From Nitrososphaerota archaeon (GTDB lineage Archaea; Thermoproteota; Nitrososphaeria; Nitrososphaerales; Nitrosopumilaceae), in contig JAGWHF010000001.1 of NCBI GenBank assembly GCA_028866895.1, forward strand, positions 1 to 64,000: a DNA stretch of 64,000 bases, given 5' to 3'. The position numbers and the translations under genes are program-made. Below the pieces are notes generated by a model. That model worked only from the letters and a program-made list of their open reading frames with translations, made no database searches and was not told where the DNA came from. Below, one piece after another: positions 2,997 through 12,050 of the stretch; the first letter of the stretch is position 1, and each line of letters opens with the position of its first letter.

Positions 2997-3590
2997 TTAA
3001 TTGCCAAATTCTTTTGCTAATGCCTCCGCAATGTAAGCCTTATTCTCGCAATATAGATCTATGAGAGTTCTAACTTTCGATGTAATTTTTTTATTCTTTA
3101 TTGTTACAGGATTATCTTCAAAATCATATTTGTAAAGATAAACAGGAGTGTCTCCCCTTGCCAAAAATTTGATTTCATCCTCCAGAAAATGTTCCTCTGG
3201 TAAGTACGCATAGATTGCTGGGTCGGTAACTTGACCCTTATGTTCTTCTAATGCCGTATTCAAACAGAATATCGCCCCTCTCTCACTTAGATAATTGATA
3301 GTTTCCTCTCTTTTCATTGCTAATGAGAATCTATCATGCAATTCCATTTTCCTAAACTTGCTATAGAAACTAATTAGCTCAAGAGGCGAGGTAACTACAT
3401 ATTTCTTACCACCTTTCTTTGACGGTCCGGTTTGTGATACGTAACCTAATTGGACGAGTTGTTTTACAAATGAATTGACAGTGGCCCCGAATTTGATGCC
3501 CAAATAGTCTGCTATCTCACGCTGTCCAAATCCGTCATAGTGAGTCAGCATGTAGAACAACATTTTGTACCTTAGCGGAGTAAAATTCAA
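2997..3590 (-). CDS. AbiEi-like winged-helix transcriptional regulator / antitoxin
   Basis: The 197-residue protein has an N-terminal winged helix (about residues 5-70): FGQREIADYLGI and TVNSFVKQLVQLGYVSQ fit helix-turn-helix, and the GGKKYVV stretch fits the wing. The remainder has the pattern of AbiEi-type antitoxin C-terminal domains (AIFCLNTALEEH, then DPAIYAYLPEE, ending in SKVRTLIDLYCEN). In type IV AbiE systems AbiEi represses its own operon and counteracts the AbiEii nucleotidyltransferase. Here the matching AbiEii-like gene is at 5703-6854, on the opposite strand beyond a GHKL ATPase. The start is a TTG; an in-frame stop upstream excludes a longer form. The four-half-site dyad at 3592-3649 abuts the start codon, which strongly suggests autoregulation. 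The family assignment is from pattern only. Confidence 0.7.
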   Translation of the reverse strand: MNFTPLRYKMLFYMLTHYDGFGQREIADYLGIKFGATVNSFVKQLVQLGYVSQTGPSKKGGKKYVVTSPLELISFYSKFRKMELHDRFSLAMKREETINYLSERGAIFCLNTALEEHKGQVTDPAIYAYLPEEHFLEDEIKFLARGDTPVYLYKYDFEDNPVTIKNKKITSKVRTLIDLYCENKAYIAEALAKEFGN

Positions 3591-3788: not shown

Positions 3789-5702
3789 ATGACTAATTCA
3801 ATAGACGTGAATATCACTCCAGACAAGACGCTAATTCAAAAACTGGGATTGATAGGTTACAGAACAGAGCAGGCCATCGCAGAATTAGTTGATAATTCAA
3901 TTGATGCGAGGATTGAAAATACATCAGAGATAATTGAAGTAATTCTAAGTTTTGAAAATCGAACTGTTACTGTAAAGGATAATGGAATTGGAATGGACAA
4001 GGAAGATTTGACAAAGGCAATGACTATTGCAAAAGGAACAAAGGTTGATGGCAAATTAGGTAAATTTGGAATTGGAATGAAAAGTGCTTGCTCAGCACTT
4101 GGGAAAAACTTTACAATTGTAACATCAAAAAAAGATTCTAGAAAGGAATATTCAGTTGTATATGATGAAGACGAATGGTTATCCAACAAATCTCTATCAT
4201 GGACTAATTTTAAAATCACAGAACGTGAGCAAGAAAAAGACAAAGAGTGGAACGGTACAAAAATAGTAATTTCGAAATTGAAAGTACCGATTTATTCCAA
4301 TCAAGTAACAAATTTCAACGAAAGCTTTGGAATTAGATATGCACCATACATATTAGATGGACAAATTCAGCTTCGGATAAACACTACAGTATGTAAACCG
4401 CAAGAACCAGAAATAGTGGAAGGAACTAGAAGAGATATACACATCACACTGTTGGATGGTTCGACAATAAAGGGATATGTTGCATTACTAACAAAGAGGT
4501 CAATAAAGGGACATTACGGTATTCATCTATTCAAAAATAGCAGATTGATAAAAGCTTATGAAAAATTTGGATTTAAACCACACCCAGAAGTAGCAAAAAT
4601 AATAGGGAAACTAGATCTAGATTTTGTTCCAGTAAATTTTCACAAAAGCGCATTCATCGAAGATTCTCCAGAGTATCAGACTGCAGAAAGAGCATTTGCA
4701 AATGAAGAAAAGGTGCAACTAATCCTGAAAGAATCTAGAGCAAGAAATGAAACACAAGTTACCCCCAACATAGTTTTTGAATACATAGCTGGTGACGCGC
4801 CACCTCGTCAGCTTGACACTAGAATTACTGCGAAAGCAGGAAAACGGTTACTTGATGAGACAAATGACTTCACTCTTAAACTTGGAAATAACGATGTATC
4901 TATCTCATTCACAGATTCAACGACAGACTCCTTATACGAAATAAACTGGGTAGGGAATAAATTACTGGTTTCTATTAATAAGGATAATCAAATATTCAGT
5001 TATGTGCGTAATCCGCTATTTTTGATAGGACTAATAGCCACGGAAATAGAACTTATTGCAAAAGATCCAAAATTCTATCATGATTTCATAAAACAACGAA
5101 ATTCGAGATTAATGACATTCATAGATGATTGGAGGCGGAAAAAAGAGCCAGTATTTAGAGACCGTCAAGAACAATTGCCACAATTTGCTGGGTACGACCT
5201 TTCTAATGATCTTGCTACCATACACAGCGAATTAAAGAACAAATCTGAAAGCAAGTTTCAATTTACAGCATTATCCACCCTTGTAAGTTACCTCCATTAT
5301 TCCCTAGGAAAGAAAATTTACACCGTGTATACCTTACCTGGAAGTGGGATGTATTTGACTGATCTCTTATCTCAGATTGTTCCCGAAGACTTTGTTGTAA
5401 TCGATAATCCGAAGCCTCAAGACTTGACACTAATCTTGGATACCACTAAGAGTGATAAAATTATCGTGGTTCGTGAATATGCAGAGATCTATGGATCAAC
5501 AATAGCCTTGCCTGAAAAAGCATGGGTGGACCTTGTGAATGAAATTTATACACACAAAATACCTGTGCAAGAAACAGAACTAAAGTACATTCTCGAAGGA
5601 TTGATTGCAAGAAAACTTGTCGATCCAAGTAAGATATTATTGCTGTTGAAACATCAGAAAAAACTGGAAAAGGTAAAAACAATAATTGAGAAGGTTTTGT
5701 GA
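3789..5702 (+). CDS. GHKL (HSP90/MORC-like) ATPase, island gene
   Basis: The 637-residue protein opens with a clear GHKL nucleotide-binding domain. The N-box is around residues 30-40 (AIAELVDNSIDA), the G1 box is DNGIGM (64-69) and the G2 box is GKFGIGMKSA (91-100). A transducer-like segment follows to about residue 330 (RSIKGHYGIHLFKNSRLIKAYE), as in MORC, MutL and HSP90-type proteins, which dimerise on ATP. The C-terminal 200 residues are unfamiliar: about 490-600 contain FTALSTLVSYLHYSLGKKIY and a hydrophobic DKIIVVREYAEIYG strand. It has no kinase H-box, so it is not a sensor histidine kinase. Its TGA is directly followed by the GTG of the nucleotidyltransferase gene, so the two should be co-translated. 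Similar stand-alone GHKL ATPases occur in prokaryotic defence loci; a defence role here is inference. Confidence 0.85.
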   Translation: MTNSIDVNITPDKTLIQKLGLIGYRTEQAIAELVDNSIDARIENTSEIIEVILSFENRTVTVKDNGIGMDKEDLTKAMTIAKGTKVDGKLGKFGIGMKSACSALGKNFTIVTSKKDSRKEYSVVYDEDEWLSNKSLSWTNFKITEREQEKDKEWNGTKIVISKLKVPIYSNQVTNFNESFGIRYAPYILDGQIQLRINTTVCKPQEPEIVEGTRRDIHITLLDGSTIKGYVALLTKRSIKGHYGIHLFKNSRLIKAYEKFGFKPHPEVAKIIGKLDLDFVPVNFHKSAFIEDSPEYQTAERAFANEEKVQLILKESRARNETQVTPNIVFEYIAGDAPPRQLDTRITAKAGKRLLDETNDFTLKLGNNDVSISFTDSTTDSLYEINWVGNKLLVSINKDNQIFSYVRNPLFLIGLIATEIELIAKDPKFYHDFIKQRNSRLMTFIDDWRRKKEPVFRDRQEQLPQFAGYDLSNDLATIHSELKNKSESKFQFTALSTLVSYLHYSLGKKIYTVYTLPGSGMYLTDLLSQIVPEDFVVIDNPKPQDLTLILDTTKSDKIIVVREYAEIYGSTIALPEKAWVDLVNEIYTHKIPVQETELKYILEGLIARKLVDPSKILLLLKHQKKLEKVKTIIEKVL

Positions 5703-6854
5703 GTGTCTGCTACTAACTACCATTTTCGCGAATATCTAGATGGTGGTTTCATCAATACAATAAAAAATGATCATGGTTATACAGATAGTAGTATAATTGA
5801 GCAATTCATAATGGATTATGAAATACTTTTTCATTTGCTCAACGAAATACCTGACCTTGTAATAAAGGGAGGAATGTCTGTTCCTTTCCATATTCCAGAT
5901 AAAAAACTCAGAAGATTAAGCGTAGATATTGATGTCGTCACAAGTTTGGCAAAGGACAAAATAGAGTCTGCAATAGAAAAAGTGAGGCATAATACTAATG
6001 GATTATTCAATATTCCCCAGCCGTATATTCCACAATCTCCTAAAAGGAAATTACCACTACTAACATATTATGTACCATATACATCAAGTATTACAAATCA
6101 AACTAATCGAGTAAAGGTGGAAATTTTTTATGACTTTAAAGATGAATTACCACTCAAATCAATTGATAGTGGTACTGAATTAATTGGTTTCAAGTTGGAC
6201 TATCCATTACGAATCTTTAATCTAAACACCTTGATAGGTGATAAGATCACTACTTTGGGATTTAATACAATAGGATTACTTGAAGAAAAAAGATCTGATA
6301 CAATAAAGCACATCTATGATGTTGGAACGTTGATTAGATTAATAGAAAATCAAGCATCCGCTGAGAAACTGTTGGAAATCTTTCAACAGGTCGCTGCATA
6401 TGAAAATTCCTTTAATGATAAACAATACTCATATGCGGACATTATTGCTGACATTATATCATCATTGGATTCATTATTGATTCAAGGTGCGGGGTATTCA
6501 TTAGAGTCATCACATGAAGGAAGATATTGTACCTTCAAAACTCAGCTTTTACAGAAAGGCAATTCATACAATAAATTGAACCATGTAAGTGATATTCTTT
6601 TAATAAAATTACTCGCTTCTTATCTGCAATTATCAATTAATGGTAAAATCAGGCAGAAGGAAGTTGTCGATGGATTTTATGGAGATTTGACAAGATTCAA
6701 TTCTATTATCTCACAGGACGGACAACAAAAGAAACAGAGTAGAAAGAAAATAATCCAATCTTTTGATACTAGAACGAAGGGAGATTTTATCAACACAATA
6801 GCTCCCGCAGAGCAAGTTTTCTTGTTTAGCAGAATCGAAAATCTACAAAGTTAG
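5703..6854 (+). CDS. AbiEii-like nucleotidyltransferase toxin
   Basis: The 383-residue protein shows the DNA polymerase beta-type nucleotidyltransferase motifs of the AbiEii/AbiGii family: KGGMSV at 55-60, then RLSVDIDVV at 71-79 with the paired aspartates that bind metal. Later GDKITTLGF and RSDTIKHIYDVGTL fit the family's conserved lysine and (R)xxD(I/V)YD segments. Family members transfer nucleotides to RNA (for example tRNA acceptor ends in MenT-type relatives) and halt growth; the target here is unknown. The start is GTG with zero spacing from the GHKL stop, so the toxin is tied to the ATPase rather than to its expected antitoxin gene, which lies divergently at 2997-3590. Composition is AT-rich like the rest of the island. 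Confidence 0.8.
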   Translation: MSATNYHFREYLDGGFINTIKNDHGYTDSSIIEQFIMDYEILFHLLNEIPDLVIKGGMSVPFHIPDKKLRRLSVDIDVVTSLAKDKIESAIEKVRHNTNGLFNIPQPYIPQSPKRKLPLLTYYVPYTSSITNQTNRVKVEIFYDFKDELPLKSIDSGTELIGFKLDYPLRIFNLNTLIGDKITTLGFNTIGLLEEKRSDTIKHIYDVGTLIRLIENQASAEKLLEIFQQVAAYENSFNDKQYSYADIIADIISSLDSLLIQGAGYSLESSHEGRYCTFKTQLLQKGNSYNKLNHVSDILLIKLLASYLQLSINGKIRQKEVVDGFYGDLTRFNSIISQDGQQKKQSRKKIIQSFDTRTKGDFINTIAPAEQVFLFSRIENLQS

Positions 6855-6881
6855 GAAGTTGAGGACATATAAAGCCGCTAT

Positions 6882-6912
6882 ATTCTCGCCTCACAATATT
6901 TTAAGGAGGCTA
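6882..6912. repeat. Direct repeat copy 1 (candidate attachment site)
   Basis: This 31-bp segment matches 10118-10148 at 28 positions, in the same orientation. The conserved core is ATTCTCGCC and CACAATATTTTAA. It lies 27 nt after the nucleotidyltransferase stop and 30 nt before the integrase fragment, the position expected of an att site. A short GCCTC/GAGGC pair inside it could also form a weak hairpin, so a terminator is an alternative. Confidence 0.65.
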
Positions 6913-6942
6913 TAATGCTTAGGCTACGAGATTTTAATTCAG

Positions 6943-7395
6943 GTGGGTCGTATGGGTAACATAAACAAGAACCTGCTAGTCTATGATAAGTACGTAAAAT
7001 CAGAGACAACTAGAAACCAGTACAAGTATTTTTTCAAGAAGTTTCCAGAGTTGGCTAAAATAAAGAATGGAAGAGATCTGCTACAGCTCAAAGATTCATA
7101 CCTTCAGGAAATGATCGAAGACTATATCCTATATCTTAGAAAAAGGTCAAGCCCGAACTCTACGACTCCGATCACTGCAGGCTTGCGGTTATATTTTTCA
7201 ATGCATGATAAGGTTCTCAATTGGCAACGCATTCAAAAAATGATACCTGAAAAGGTCAAGAAGGCAGGATATAGTGCGTATCAGACTGAAGATATTCAAA
7301 AAATGCTGGAATTTAAAAAAAGGAAAAATCTAAATTATGTTCCAAAGAAACTTTCCTCCACTAACATGAGTACAGTAAATAATAATTCTATCTAG
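6943..7395 (+). pseudogene. Truncated tyrosine recombinase (integrase) N-terminal fragment
   Basis: The 150-residue product resembles the N-terminal SAM-like core-binding domain of archaeal tyrosine integrases: YDKYVKSETTRNQYKYFF, then EMIEDYILYLRKR, then KVKKAGYSAYQTEDIQKML, which is where the catalytic domain normally begins. It then ends after a low-complexity tail (NLNYVPKKLSSTN). The catalytic R...H-x-x-R...Y residues are absent, and nothing downstream to 7467 restores them. Start is GTG at 6943, or ATG at 6952. It is either a decayed integrase or a free DNA-binding fragment. Its place beside repeat copy 1 fits a relic of the element that brought in the HD and ImmA genes. Confidence 0.65.
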
Positions 7396-7467
7396 ACTGG
7401 AATTCTTCAAATAGCAAAGAATGTTCTAACAACAGAAAAACTCAAGTATAAAGATAAACTATAACAT

Positions 7468-9153
7468 ATGTTGACAGTTATACCGATGGATAAATTTACA
7501 GTAGATCGGAATTCTAAGGAGTGGATTCCGTCTGGCACGGAACTCGACGATCTGTTAAAACCGCTTAAAGTAATAAGAGATCCAATACATGGAGATATCA
7601 GACTTACAGAGTTAGAGTCAGCCGTAATTGATACAAGAGAATTTCAAAGATTACGAACTATTCAACAGCTTGGACCTTCATCTCTGGTATATAATGGAGC
7701 TACTCATACAAGATTTGATCATTCTATTGGAGCAGTTGACGTAACTCAATACATGATAAATAAAATTAACATTAACTCAAAACAATACCCTGACCATTTT
7801 CTTCCAGTAGATAACTATATCGTTCTTCTAGCCAGGCTTTATGCTCTTATTCATGATGTTGCTCATATTGCCTTTGGTCATACTCTGGAAGATGAAGGTA
7901 AATTATTCGATTCCCAATGGGATGATAATAAAAGGATAGATGTTTTTCTTGGGGAAAACTCCGAGATCGGAAAAAGAATAATTCAGTATGCAGGCTATAA
8001 GACATTACAGCATTTAAAGGAAATTCTTCTGGCCCATTCTGATGATGAGATACAGCGATTGGAATATCCTATTGTATGTGATATAGTGGGCAATACTATT
8101 TGTGCAGATTTGCTAGACTATTTGACTCGTGATATGTATTACTCTGGGCTTAAGGGTACATATGATAAAAGATTTCTGGATTACCTTACTGGACAAAAAT
8201 ACAATAACAAGTTAAGGCTGGTTATATCTTTGTTCAAACCCATGAAGGATGAATACAGGAGAGATGTTGTATCGGAAATAATGCATCTTTTAAGACTGAG
8301 GTATTCTTTGGCAGAAAGAATCTATTATCATCACACAAAGATTGCCGCATCAGCAATGCTGATTTCTGCGGTAAATATTGCTAAAATAAAAAATGAACAA
8401 TGGTTGATGGATGATCTATTCAATTTTGGAGATCAGGAACTACTTCATAAATTAGAAACCGATCAATCCTCTCCAGATGAGGTCAAGTTCATAATAAAAC
8501 AGTACCGTCGACGTAGTCTCTATAAGCCAATTTTTATCGCTTCCTATGGACAGGTAAAAGAAGGAGATTCATTCTCTTTGAAGAAAAAGGAAATTACTGA
8601 TGAGCTAGCAAAAGATCCCAAAAAGAGATATGATCTGGAGAGAAAATTAGAAAATGGGATTCTTCCACCTGGAAGTGTATTAATTTATTGTCCACCAAAA
8701 GGAATGGGTAGAAAAATAGCGGAGGCAAAAGTACAATGGAGAGGAAATATTATTCCACTCAAAGATGTAGACCATTATGGTATCGGTGAGGAAACTAGAA
8801 AAATAATGAAACAACATGAAGAGTTATGGAGATTGTATGTGTTTGTAACATCTGATTGTTATAATTGGCCTCAAATAACAAAGGTTGTTATGGATTTTAA
8901 TAAAGCAACAGGATTAAATCAAGAACTAGCTAGATTTGATATAGCCAAAAACGCTTCGCCACCTGCTCATGAAGAAGTTATCTATAGGCATATACTAGAA
9001 TACAAGAAAAAAAATAAACAAGATGTACCACCTGAAATAATACAATCAGTATTGGCTAGTGCAAATGCCCCTGTCCCAGGCCAAGAAATGCCAAAAATAT
9101 TAAATTATAATGAATTCGAAGAAATCGTCAAAGACCTAATCAAAAAGAAATGA
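7468..9153 (+). CDS. HD-domain phosphohydrolase (SAMHD1/dGTPase-like), island copy
   Basis: The 561-residue protein has the HD-hydrolase layout: VIRDPIHGDIRL, REFQRLRTIQQLG, then H85 in TRFDHSIG, the doublet H129-D130 in LIHDVAHIAFGH, and a distal aspartate in ADLLDYLTRD (about 214-222). Relatives such as SAMHD1 and dGTPases hydrolyse dNTPs, and several act against viruses by nucleotide depletion. The C-terminal 300 residues have no match I can name. The core paralogue at 44173-45420 shares the same motif order but is 146 residues shorter and GC-rich. An ATG at 7486 is an alternative start. The stop overlaps the next start (ATGA at 9150), so it is translationally coupled to the ImmA-like peptidase. 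Confidence 0.8.
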   Translation: MLTVIPMDKFTVDRNSKEWIPSGTELDDLLKPLKVIRDPIHGDIRLTELESAVIDTREFQRLRTIQQLGPSSLVYNGATHTRFDHSIGAVDVTQYMINKININSKQYPDHFLPVDNYIVLLARLYALIHDVAHIAFGHTLEDEGKLFDSQWDDNKRIDVFLGENSEIGKRIIQYAGYKTLQHLKEILLAHSDDEIQRLEYPIVCDIVGNTICADLLDYLTRDMYYSGLKGTYDKRFLDYLTGQKYNNKLRLVISLFKPMKDEYRRDVVSEIMHLLRLRYSLAERIYYHHTKIAASAMLISAVNIAKIKNEQWLMDDLFNFGDQELLHKLETDQSSPDEVKFIIKQYRRRSLYKPIFIASYGQVKEGDSFSLKKKEITDELAKDPKKRYDLERKLENGILPPGSVLIYCPPKGMGRKIAEAKVQWRGNIIPLKDVDHYGIGEETRKIMKQHEELWRLYVFVTSDCYNWPQITKVVMDFNKATGLNQELARFDIAKNASPPAHEEVIYRHILEYKKKNKQDVPPEIIQSVLASANAPVPGQEMPKILNYNEFEEIVKDLIKKK

Positions 9154-10073
9154 GTAATCAAAAATTAGGATTAGCCTTTGAAAGTCTTGCACAGAAGCTA
9201 GGATACAAATCTGAAAAACTCGGTAATATTGACGAACAAAGAAATCAAATACGAAGATTACTAGACTCGTATATTAATAATCTTCTTTGGAAAGCAAAAG
9301 AACTAACACCACCTATCAATCCAGAAAATATAGCACCGTTAGTAGGAGTGAGAGAAATAAGAAAAACCTTATGGCATTCAGATGGTTCTCTTATTCCTAG
9401 AAAAGATGGATTTGAAATCATAATAAATTCTCAAACAAAAAATGTGCGGCAACGTTCTGTATGTGCACACGAAATAGGACACACTTTTTTTTATAATTGG
9501 AATGATGGAACACCAACAAAAATTTTCTATGACATACCTTACTGGGAGGAAGAAGGCATGGTATATGAAATTGCTAGAAAAATATTGATACCAACTAATC
9601 TAATTACTAAAATGGTAAAATCTAGACACATTACTTTTCAAAATCTACAAGAAATGGCTCAGACTTTTGGAGTCTCTTATGAGTTCATTATTAGGCGATT
9701 GGGCGATCTGGATCTTCTGGACTCTGTTATTTTACTGATAGAAATTATTAATGAGAGCAAAACCGATTACAAATACAAAGTTAAAATCAAGAACAAACCA
9801 ACTTGGGATAAAAATAAATTAATTATTAATGGAGGTAAATTCATAGCTAAAAATGACAAACTTCATGATCTCCTCGATACAGTCTCTAAACAATCTAATC
9901 CAGAAATAATTCATAAAAAAATGGAGCTATCTAATTCTTCAAGTGATAAATTTCAAATAAGTATAGCCAAAATGGGAGGTACTAAACCTTACATTGTTGT
10001 ATTAATATCACCTGAACCAAAAGAAAACAAGCAGCTCAAACTGGATGATATGGCCTTAATCTCATCGAGTTAG
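9150..10073 (+). CDS. ImmA/IrrE-family metallopeptidase
   Basis: The 307-residue protein carries HEIGH at 107-111 after RSVCA, the zinc site of ImmA/IrrE peptidases, with a downstream glutamate in YEIARKILIPTNLI (about 139-152), the usual third-ligand helix. FQNLQEMAQTFGVSYEFIIRRL (about 165-187) matches the family's helix-turn-helix-like tail (LA..F.VS...A..RL). The last 110 residues are unassigned. Family members cleave repressors or regulators on DNA damage or signal input, as ImmA does for ImmR in ICEBs1. No Xre-type partner lies next to it; the coupled neighbour is the HD hydrolase, which it may regulate. The island ends just downstream, with repeat copy 2 at 10118. Confidence 0.8.
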   Translation: MSNQKLGLAFESLAQKLGYKSEKLGNIDEQRNQIRRLLDSYINNLLWKAKELTPPINPENIAPLVGVREIRKTLWHSDGSLIPRKDGFEIIINSQTKNVRQRSVCAHEIGHTFFYNWNDGTPTKIFYDIPYWEEEGMVYEIARKILIPTNLITKMVKSRHITFQNLQEMAQTFGVSYEFIIRRLGDLDLLDSVILLIEIINESKTDYKYKVKIKNKPTWDKNKLIINGGKFIAKNDKLHDLLDTVSKQSNPEIIHKKMELSNSSSDKFQISIAKMGGTKPYIVVLISPEPKENKQLKLDDMALISSS

Positions 10074-10117
10074 AACGGAATTTTTATAGCTTATAATTAC
10101 CCTAAAAAAGGCCTTAA

Positions 10118-10148
10118 ATTCTCGCCGCACAATATTTTAACGGGGCTA
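10118..10148. repeat. Direct repeat copy 2 (candidate attachment site)
   Basis: This is the partner of 6882-6912 (28 of 31 identical, same orientation), 45 nt after the ImmA-like stop. Together the copies bracket a 3.2-kb segment holding the integrase fragment, HD hydrolase and peptidase. The differences fall at the tenth position and in the GGAGG/CGGGG end. Confidence 0.65.
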
Positions 10149-10232
10149 AAAATCTACTCAAAATCAAATTATTGAGGTAGATTTAGAATCTAGGGAAGCA
10201 ATCGACTACCACATGTTACTTTGAATTCAAAA

Positions 10233-10403
10233 TCACCTCATAATTGTAGCTGGATTATTTGTACCCTGAACATTTGGCCATCTTTGTTTGTTGTATGTTG
10301 CACACTGTTTGATGATTTCAACGTACTCTTCCTTGATTAAATCGACCACATTCACACCACCTACAAGAATACCATAGCCAATTATAATCCTATTTGCTAT
10401 CAT
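10233..10403 (-). CDS. Possible 56-residue small ORF at the island edge
   Basis: An ATG on the minus strand at 10403 opens a 57-codon frame ending in TGA at 10233. The product begins MIANRIIIGYGILVGGVNVV and continues with a charged helix (DLIKEEYVEIIKQ) and a polar tail. No family is recognised. It has no clear TATA element at the right distance and could be a degraded remnant. The rest of 10074-10718 contains repeat copy 2, the composition switch from AT-rich to GC-rich near 10450-10500, and the promoter of the next gene, but no other gene I can support. Confidence 0.3.
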   Translation of the reverse strand: MIANRIIIGYGILVGGVNVVDLIKEEYVEIIKQCATYNKQRWPNVQGTNNPATIMR

Positions 10404-10718
10404 AGTATTTTATCGCTGAAAGATTAAGATTTGGAGTCTCAAAAAGGATAAAACCAAATTTTATAAACAAAAATTGGGAATGGGGTTTTTGCAGCCACCC
10501 ACAATGGCTTACTACATTACATTCCGTTCTCTCTGTCTCGGTCAACCTCTCTCGGCCCATTTTCTCTGTCTTTCCGGGCATCGTTGAGGTTAGAACAGCC
10601 TGTGTCCTTCCGGGCCGCTTTCTTCCACGACCATGAATGGAGGCGGTCTTCTTACCTTCCTTTTTTGCAATCTCGGGCAAGGGATCTCCTTTTATTATTT
10701 GGACCAATTACCAGAAGC

Positions 10719-12050
10719 GTGGAATCCTGCACCAGGTGCGGCGGCGATCTGAAACAAGGCACAAAAACCTGCACAAGATGCGGTGCCAACCCGGAGGCCC
10801 CGGCAAATCATCCGGATCAAAAAACGCCGGGTATCCCGGAAACCAGCCTGGAAGAATCCGTCGAGAGAATCTTCAGGGACAGGGGTTATGAGACTGCACT
10901 GCACCAGAAAATCAAGGGGCGGTCGGGCAGGGAGGAGGATCTTGATGTTGTTGCAAGGCGCGGGGGCGCATTGCTTGCAATTGATTGTAAAAATTATCCC
11001 CATGACAGGAAGGTCGGGCCCAAGGAGGTCGGGGATTTTATCTCAAAATTGGACGAACTTGGCATCAGCAGGGGGCTGCTTGTAACGTCGTCTGATTTTT
11101 CGCCAGACGCCGCCAGGCTTGCCAACAATAATCCCGGCCCAAGACAGCTAGACCTGTGGAACGGGGCCGAATTTCTCGAACAGTATCAAAGGGTAACCCA
11201 AGGCCGTGCGGACGCAAGTCTGCCGGTAATCGAGGGCAGCCTGCAGCCTGCGGGAACCTATGACGACTATGCCGCCCTGAAACTGAGGAACAGGGAAAGG
11301 GTGGTAACCAGAAGGCAGGACCTTGTCTTCCACCCCTATTTCATAGTGGAATTCGACCTGCACGAGCAGCTTTTCACCACAGGCAAGAAGCACGTCATCA
11401 AGAACTCGGGCAGGTATTTTATCGACGGGGTGTCAGAGGAGATACTCTTCCGCCAATCGGAAAACGGCAACGCAACCTACGATATCGACCCTGCGGAAAA
11501 GCAGATTGTAAGGGACTTGATGGGGCTGCAGCCGGCTACTGTAAAACTTCCCGCCGTGCCAGGCATCACAGTCTCCAAACTGGAGCCTGCCATGAGCAAC
11601 AGGGACGTCGAGTTTAGGATAAAGACCCTCATCGTCAGCGAAAATAAGACAGCCCCAAGGCACGGCCAGGACGGCTCCAATCGGGCCGGTGCTGAAAAGG
11701 ACACTCATTGCCCCCACATCAACTCCGTGGACGCCAGGTCGCACATGGTGTACGTCCCGATAATGAAAATCGAGTTTGAATCCAAGGGCCGCATCTATTC
11801 CAGAACCGTACTTCCCGCCTCTGGCGTGGTAACAAGGGACGAGATCGCCTTCTGCCCCAAGCCGGACCATAAAAAAAGCCAGACCGTCGCAGTCTGCGAC
11901 GCATGCGGGATTGCAGAATGCGAAAATGACATACTTTCAGATGGCAGGGGCGCCTACTACTGCAGGGACCATTTTCCGGCCGGGCAGGCCAAGGCTGACA
12001 AGGGCAAGTCCCTTGCAGGCAAGTTCAAGAACCTGCGGTTTGGAAAATAA
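10719..12050 (+). CDS. Zinc-ribbon Mrr-like restriction endonuclease-fold protein
   Basis: A zinc ribbon opens the protein (CTRCGGDLKQGTKTCTRCG, two CxxC pairs). Then comes a PD-(D/E)XK domain: EESVERIFRDRGYE, DLDVVARRGGALLAIDCKNY with D...D-x-K, and a helix KEVGDFISKLDELG, typical of Mrr-like and archaeal Holliday-junction-like nucleases. A third segment near the C-terminus has CDACGIAECEND and YYCRDHF, a second probable zinc site. I place the start at the GTG at 10719, giving 443 residues, because it lies directly before the ribbon and a TTTATTAT element lies about 25 nt upstream; the frame stays open upstream to 10584. It is the first GC-rich gene after the island. It may be DNA repair or a solitary restriction-type enzyme. 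Confidence 0.7.
   Translation: MESCTRCGGDLKQGTKTCTRCGANPEAPANHPDQKTPGIPETSLEESVERIFRDRGYETALHQKIKGRSGREEDLDVVARRGGALLAIDCKNYPHDRKVGPKEVGDFISKLDELGISRGLLVTSSDFSPDAARLANNNPGPRQLDLWNGAEFLEQYQRVTQGRADASLPVIEGSLQPAGTYDDYAALKLRNRERVVTRRQDLVFHPYFIVEFDLHEQLFTTGKKHVIKNSGRYFIDGVSEEILFRQSENGNATYDIDPAEKQIVRDLMGLQPATVKLPAVPGITVSKLEPAMSNRDVEFRIKTLIVSENKTAPRHGQDGSNRAGAEKDTHCPHINSVDARSHMVYVPIMKIEFESKGRIYSRTVLPASGVVTRDEIAFCPKPDHKKSQTVAVCDACGIAECENDILSDGRGAYYCRDHFPAGQAKADKGKSLAGKFKNLRFGK

Follow-up and report, generated by a model that had tools for sequence, protein, structure and literature searches.

Positions 6900–10148 of the DNA analysed here very probably hold a small element of a thaumarchaeal tyrosine-recombinase family that integrated into the chromosome and became stranded there. 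The window, i.e. the whole stretch of 64,000 nt, is the start of contig C11 (JAGWHF010000001.1) in a genome of 2.26 Mb on 95 contigs. Its host is an ammonia-oxidising archaeon from a genus near Nitrosotalea, with congeners that include Candidatus Nitrosotalea sp. and Thaumarchaeota metagenome-assembled genomes. The element is a new, integrase-dead member of a family that uses the 5' flank of a tRNA-Arg gene, where congeners carry integrase-less inserts of one gene each. Between two direct repeats it encodes, all on the + strand, an N-terminal integrase relic (6943–7395), an HD-domain phosphohydrolase (7468–9153) and an M78 (ImmA/IrrE-type) metallopeptidase (9150–10073). The cassette lies within an AT-rich foreign block (about 2.5–10.45 kb, at about 30–39% GC, with 44–49% on its left and 50–60% on its right) that reaches left beyond the cassette to about 2.5 kb.

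Repeats and probable attachment sites

An earlier note on this DNA had described direct repeats at 6882–6912 and 10118–10148 and compared them to attL and attR. The repeats are indeed 28/31 identical in the same orientation, and the likeness even widens to 6871–6915 and 10107–10151 (37/45 or 82%, at a spacing of 3236). Their distances from the genes also hold, with 30 nt from the left repeat to the GTG of the integrase frame and 44 nt from the stop codon of the peptidase to the right repeat. The repeat pattern occurs exactly twice in the window, against an expectation of 0 from 100 shuffles, and the best ungapped 31-mer pairs in 12 Markov shuffles of the 8-kb AT-rich block gave only 22–24 matches (maximum 24/31, compared to the real 28). 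The earlier note had proposed a genome-wide search for the 31-mer, holding that many copies at gene ends would speak against attachment (att) sites; in the whole 2.26-Mb genome there are exactly two copies, with up to three mismatches allowed.

The tRNA-Arg(TCG) 5' flank was compared in 28 genomes of the genus, the host genome included. It is empty in 22 of these, with a conserved gene (aminotransferase-like, from its translation read by eye) starting 41–42 nt from the tRNA 5' end, and the empty attB between tRNA and gene is AAGAATTTAACGGGGCTAAATATCTGTCTAGG or a close variant. Four genomes are occupied: G172, G103, G079 and G160. In G172, which has an intact integrase gene at the flank, the sequence switches after GGCTA to TAATGCTT. 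The same switch is seen in G103 and G079, followed by 895 and 1027 bp respectively and an exit via TATACG-GGCTA to AAATAT-TGTCTAGG and the conserved gene. These two inserts (L173, G103:C87, reverse complement, about 220–1140; L171, G079:C24, about 250–1300) were inserted precisely and have a copy of the core at either end; neither contains an integrase, and the one gene that each carries is a methyltransferase gene, homologous between the two inserts but opposite in orientation. G160 shows the occupied junction at the tRNA-Arg gene, after which the contig ends. The host genome and G123 have a 61-bp insert at this locus (L161, G000:C11:181827, and L154), which includes a second core and the arm TTGAAAGTATTATACGGGGCT and resembles a minimal footprint of the same system.

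The two window copies can be aligned with these sites. The left repeat (6871–6915, + strand) has the composition of an integrase-proximal junction, i.e. P-type arm, core and start of the P' arm, and reads TTTAAGGAGGCTATAATGCTTAGG, an occupied junction. Its 13-bp core, TTTAAGGAGGCTA (6900–6912), is followed by TAATGCTT, the signature also present at the tRNA-Arg(TCG) genes of G172, G103, G079 and G160, and the DNA homology to the G172 element starts within the repeat, at 6900. The adjoining P' arm and integrase leader (6913–6955, + strand) is identical to the G172 element leader at 39/43 positions. The right repeat (10107–10151, + strand) has the composition of a distal junction, P arm plus core, and aligns without gaps to the distal junctions of G079 (23/35 for arm and core) and G103 (25/35). 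It reads TTTAACGGGGCTAAAAATCT, with 15 nt exact to the empty core plus a B'-like stretch; the core TTTAACGGGGCTA with the B'-like AAAAATCT (10136–10156, + strand) contains TTTAACGGGGCTAAA, which is identical to the congeners' empty attB core. AAAAATCT matches AAATATCT at 7/8 positions, a level reached at 0.09% of island positions.

On this sequence evidence the best reading of the repeats is that they are the att sites of an element with a tyrosine recombinase, chiefly because the exact occupied-junction pattern was found at five places in 250 family genomes, namely the four tRNA-Arg sites and the window. The attL/attR layout proposed earlier is supported by congeners, where the same core and arms build the empty and occupied sites. 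A sixth match, with one mismatch, is in G093, and among about 85,000 species genomes the thaumarchaeal matches to the occupied pattern are the same four only. No free attP form was found in viral contigs. Loose matches to the repeat at other loci in G169, G148 and G079 were dismissed, as no core follows them. Upstream of integrases at other loci of the wider family no comparable repeat was found (best scores 11–13, versus 22 here), L076 and L077 excepted. These two loci (in G166 and G188) have an integrase of this family, truncated at the N terminus, next to nearly palindromic 29-bp repeats, TTTAGACTACTGGATTGCAGTTGACTAAA, and are possibly another stranded element.

Integrase relic and probable tandem neighbour

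Residues 1–123 of the relic have 73% amino acid (aa) identity to the intact 368-aa integrase of G172 (L066), which matches PF00589 and PHROG integrases. The corresponding DNA alignment covers 6900–7312 at 76.5% identity and has sharp edges on both sides. Its left edge falls inside the repeat, beyond which G172 runs into tRNA-Arg(TCG); its right edge is at residue 123, just before the PF00589 catalytic domain of the G172 relative. The catalytic domain of the relatives falls entirely past this break, and the relic frame continues into an unrelated 27-residue tail. With the integrase gene cut at codon 123, ahead of the catalytic domain, the element cannot excise itself. The fragment has no Pfam integrase match of its own and was recognised via full-length relatives that do; the decay that the earlier note assumed is not scattered and takes the form of a single sharp truncation. 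A candidate explanation as an integron or gene cassette array was rejected: the relic is of a thaumarchaeal integrase family in which no IntI-type gene was seen, and the repeats fold no better than shuffles.

The left repeat borders a second foreign-looking unit. A MORC-like GHKL ATPase gene (PF13589, 5.8e-23) directly followed by an AbiEii nucleotidyltransferase gene (AbiEii, 3.6e-26) occupies 3789–6854 on the + strand, ending 16 nt before the left copy. To the left of the core, the window copies share 24/29 nt in an arm, TTCTCGCC..CACAATA. Empty tRNA-Arg sites do not have this arm, and the distal junctions of G079 and G103 carry a related one (13/22 and 14/22 nt outside the core, with shuffle frequencies of 0.003 and 0.0002). 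Since the arm is shared by both window copies, missing from empty sites and related at distal junctions, the left copy looks like the distal end of the neighbour; two tandem elements probably meet there in a hybrid junction, as opposed to a plain one between chromosome and element. In the mechanism we envision, recombination by the integrase would have taken place between attP and a site containing TTTAACGGGGCTAAA; by then the left copy would already have been the distal end of an earlier MORC–AbiEii element, putting two elements in tandem; and a later deletion would have joined the integrase stub to the cargo. Remobilisation would require an integrase supplied in trans.

The MORC–AbiEii pair itself looks like a two-gene defence module. 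It recurs as a conserved pair at eleven other thaumarchaeal loci, and a limited literature search found no published description of it. Beside it, in the same AT-rich block, is a gene for a winged helix-turn-helix, AbiEi-like protein (2997–3590, − strand), 41% identical to a protein of the G172 element that matches AbiEi profiles. On the other side of the cassette, between the right repeat and the gene that follows, there is a possible gene of about 57 aa on the minus strand (10227–10403, read by eye). The following gene (10584–12050) encodes a protein that resembles Mrr-type restriction endonucleases and weakly matches a zinc ribbon; it is present in only 3/121 family genomes, with a second host copy on contig C76.

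Cargo proteins

As described earlier, the two cargo genes are translationally coupled, the HD gene overlapping the peptidase gene by 4 nt. The HD protein (561 aa, SAMHD1/dGTPase-like, PF01966/PF19276) has intact HD (H129-D130) and H..E (H138, E141) motifs, matches structure chains of SAMHD1 and 9mr6 down to 3e-23, and hits the PADLOC dGTPase profile at 0.0014. By motif and SAMHD1 likeness it is a dGTPase-type HD hydrolase, with a predicted deoxynucleoside triphosphate (dNTP) triphosphohydrolase activity. It is distinct from an HD protein of about 423 aa matched in 179/200 family genomes from all 22 genera. The peptidase (307 aa, PF06114, 1.1e-9) keeps an intact HExxH zinc motif in its PF06114 domain, as HEIGH at residue 107; its best PADLOC profile is CapP (8.6e-15), and it carries a weak internal HTH_3 match (0.013, below the cut-off). 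No homologue of the peptidase was found at 1e-6 in 399 other class genomes. HD–ImmA pairs elsewhere, which the earlier note had suggested looking for, did not turn up: 400 class genomes, phages, plasmids, viral contigs and a pattern scan of GTDB yielded no homologue of ImmA. In five of six opened bacterial or phage records the neighbours of the HD gene are not M78 genes, the sixth being a record without annotation, and in Phaeobacter the second gene coupled to the HD gene is unrelated.

To judge by family resemblance, the gene pair may be a module for stress response or defence against viruses, in line with the antiviral or SOS-like flavour that the earlier note saw in it. Two lines of precedent bear on function. 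In Clover, dNTPases are phage-defence effectors under the control of a partner enzyme (PMC12265719), and IrrE-type peptidases sense DNA damage (PMC10904395). From these precedents we tentatively suggest, leaning on analogy and somewhat short of an even expectation, that the hydrolase may be an effector that depletes dNTPs and so acts against replicating invaders, with the peptidase as its damage-sensing regulator. The window pair shares with Clover CloA the HD dNTPase family, the HD motif, the H..E dyad and a second, possibly regulatory gene alongside; the partner differs, being an M78 peptidase and not a CloB-type nucleotidyltransferase. Clover (CloA–CloB) was accordingly rejected as a label, the HD gene having no CloB-like partner and the AbiEii nucleotidyltransferase sitting beyond the left att site. 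With CapP and PprI/IrrE (PMC10904395), the peptidase shares the HExxH domain, CapP being its best profile; it differs in having an HD hydrolase as partner and no adjacent repressor gene. No helix-turn-helix repressor gene was found between the att sites, as a CapP–CapH type pair would have.

Competing readings and relation to known elements

Several observations weigh against a stranded, tandemly placed element with defence cargo. There is no tRNA at the window site, and the host's own tRNA-Arg(TCG) lies elsewhere on the same contig, carrying the 61-bp insert. The likeness of the right copy to the congener distal junctions reaches just 23–25/35. No third repeat copy or junction was found that would mark the left end of the supposed MORC–AbiEii neighbour. 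No empty copy of the exact window site was found using synteny from the RtcA-side right flank and flanking genes at 20 congener loci: left of 12.9 kb the congeners are no longer syntenic, and window position 1 is also the first of the contig, so that the empty-site comparison proposed in the earlier note succeeded for the sister tRNA-Arg locus while the window locus had no syntenic comparator. Single-sequence structure models of both cargo proteins had mean pLDDT (a per-residue confidence score) of 44 and 38, too poor to use, and the defence role of the HD–ImmA pair is drawn from family resemblance.

Because the left end of the MORC–AbiEii neighbour was not found, a plain attL/attR pair of one element has to be considered, the chromosomal site sharing about 31 bp with attP by chance and MORC–AbiEii being host or unrelated island genes. 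Blocks of attP/attB identity of tens of bp are typical in archaeal integration (PMC6563490; PMC8371274). Yet the empty tRNA-Arg sites of congeners lack the left arm that the distal junctions of other elements resemble, the window copies stay alike for 29 nt left of the core, and the left neighbour is an AT-rich, conserved and mobile-looking pair; we regard a single integration as a serious reading, though one we would sooner doubt than adopt. We think it unlikely that the cassette is a non-autonomous unit that related integrases still move in trans. In favour of such movement, two congeners have inserts at tRNA-Arg that lack an integrase and share the core and junction type, and the host genome has full-length integrases of the wider family (C33, C44). 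The identity of these resident integrases to the relic, however, is only 44%, and they have no window-type junction upstream; the repeats differ at three positions, which points to some age, and the one-gene inserts of G079 and G103 may have lost an integrase after arrival.

We consider it very improbable that the repeats are terminators, promoters or regulator-binding sites. A stop codon precedes each copy, the left copy holds a short GCCTC/GAGGC inverted repeat, and in congeners the core sits in a probable tRNA-Arg promoter region. The terminator-like motif that the earlier note had offered as an alternative nevertheless fails on its genome copy number of two, on weak folding (z of −0.85 and −0.58), on the lack of a T tract and on a terminator scan that picked up neither copy; no + strand gene starts just past the right copy, and the homology to the G172 element begins inside the repeat. 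Suicidal integration of the spindle-shaped virus (SSV) type, splitting the integrase into int(N) and int(C) at opposite ends, would agree with an N-terminal fragment and is hardly credible for the rest: no C-terminal or other integrase piece was found elsewhere in the window, which makes the relic a truncated stub and not one half of a split gene, the att core is outside the integrase gene, upstream of it, and the integrated relative in G172 keeps its integrase gene intact.

As a stranded integrated element, the cassette can be compared with the thaumarchaeal cryptic integrated elements of Krupovic et al. (2019), which are small, integrase-carrying and bounded by direct repeats, the smallest, NitUzo-E2, having 2.6 kb (PMC6563490). 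Tandem integration at one site and tRNA targets have been described for Thaumarchaeota, and the tRNA-targeting elements of that survey use the 3' end in all but one case, the 5' side being seen once (PMC6563490). The window element shares the small size and the direct repeats; it differs in its truncated integrase, and its family in having its site at a tRNA-Arg 5' flank.

The HD–peptidase pair is a candidate dNTPase defence module with a different mode of regulation. The integrase-less, att-bounded inserts raise the question of whether single genes for defence or modification pass between ammonia-oxidising archaea as integrative cassettes that are not autonomous. A broader idea, which we think improbable, is that there may be an archaeal cassette family, many members integrase-less, sharing one integrase-specific core and moved in trans into the tRNA-Arg(TCG) 5' flank and similar sites with HD–ImmA, MORC–AbiEii or methyltransferase cargo, amounting to a cassette economy outside integrons. 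The integration system is now defined by its core, its arms, its sites in the empty and the occupied state, and an integrase of full length, which makes thaumarchaeal integrase specificity directly testable.
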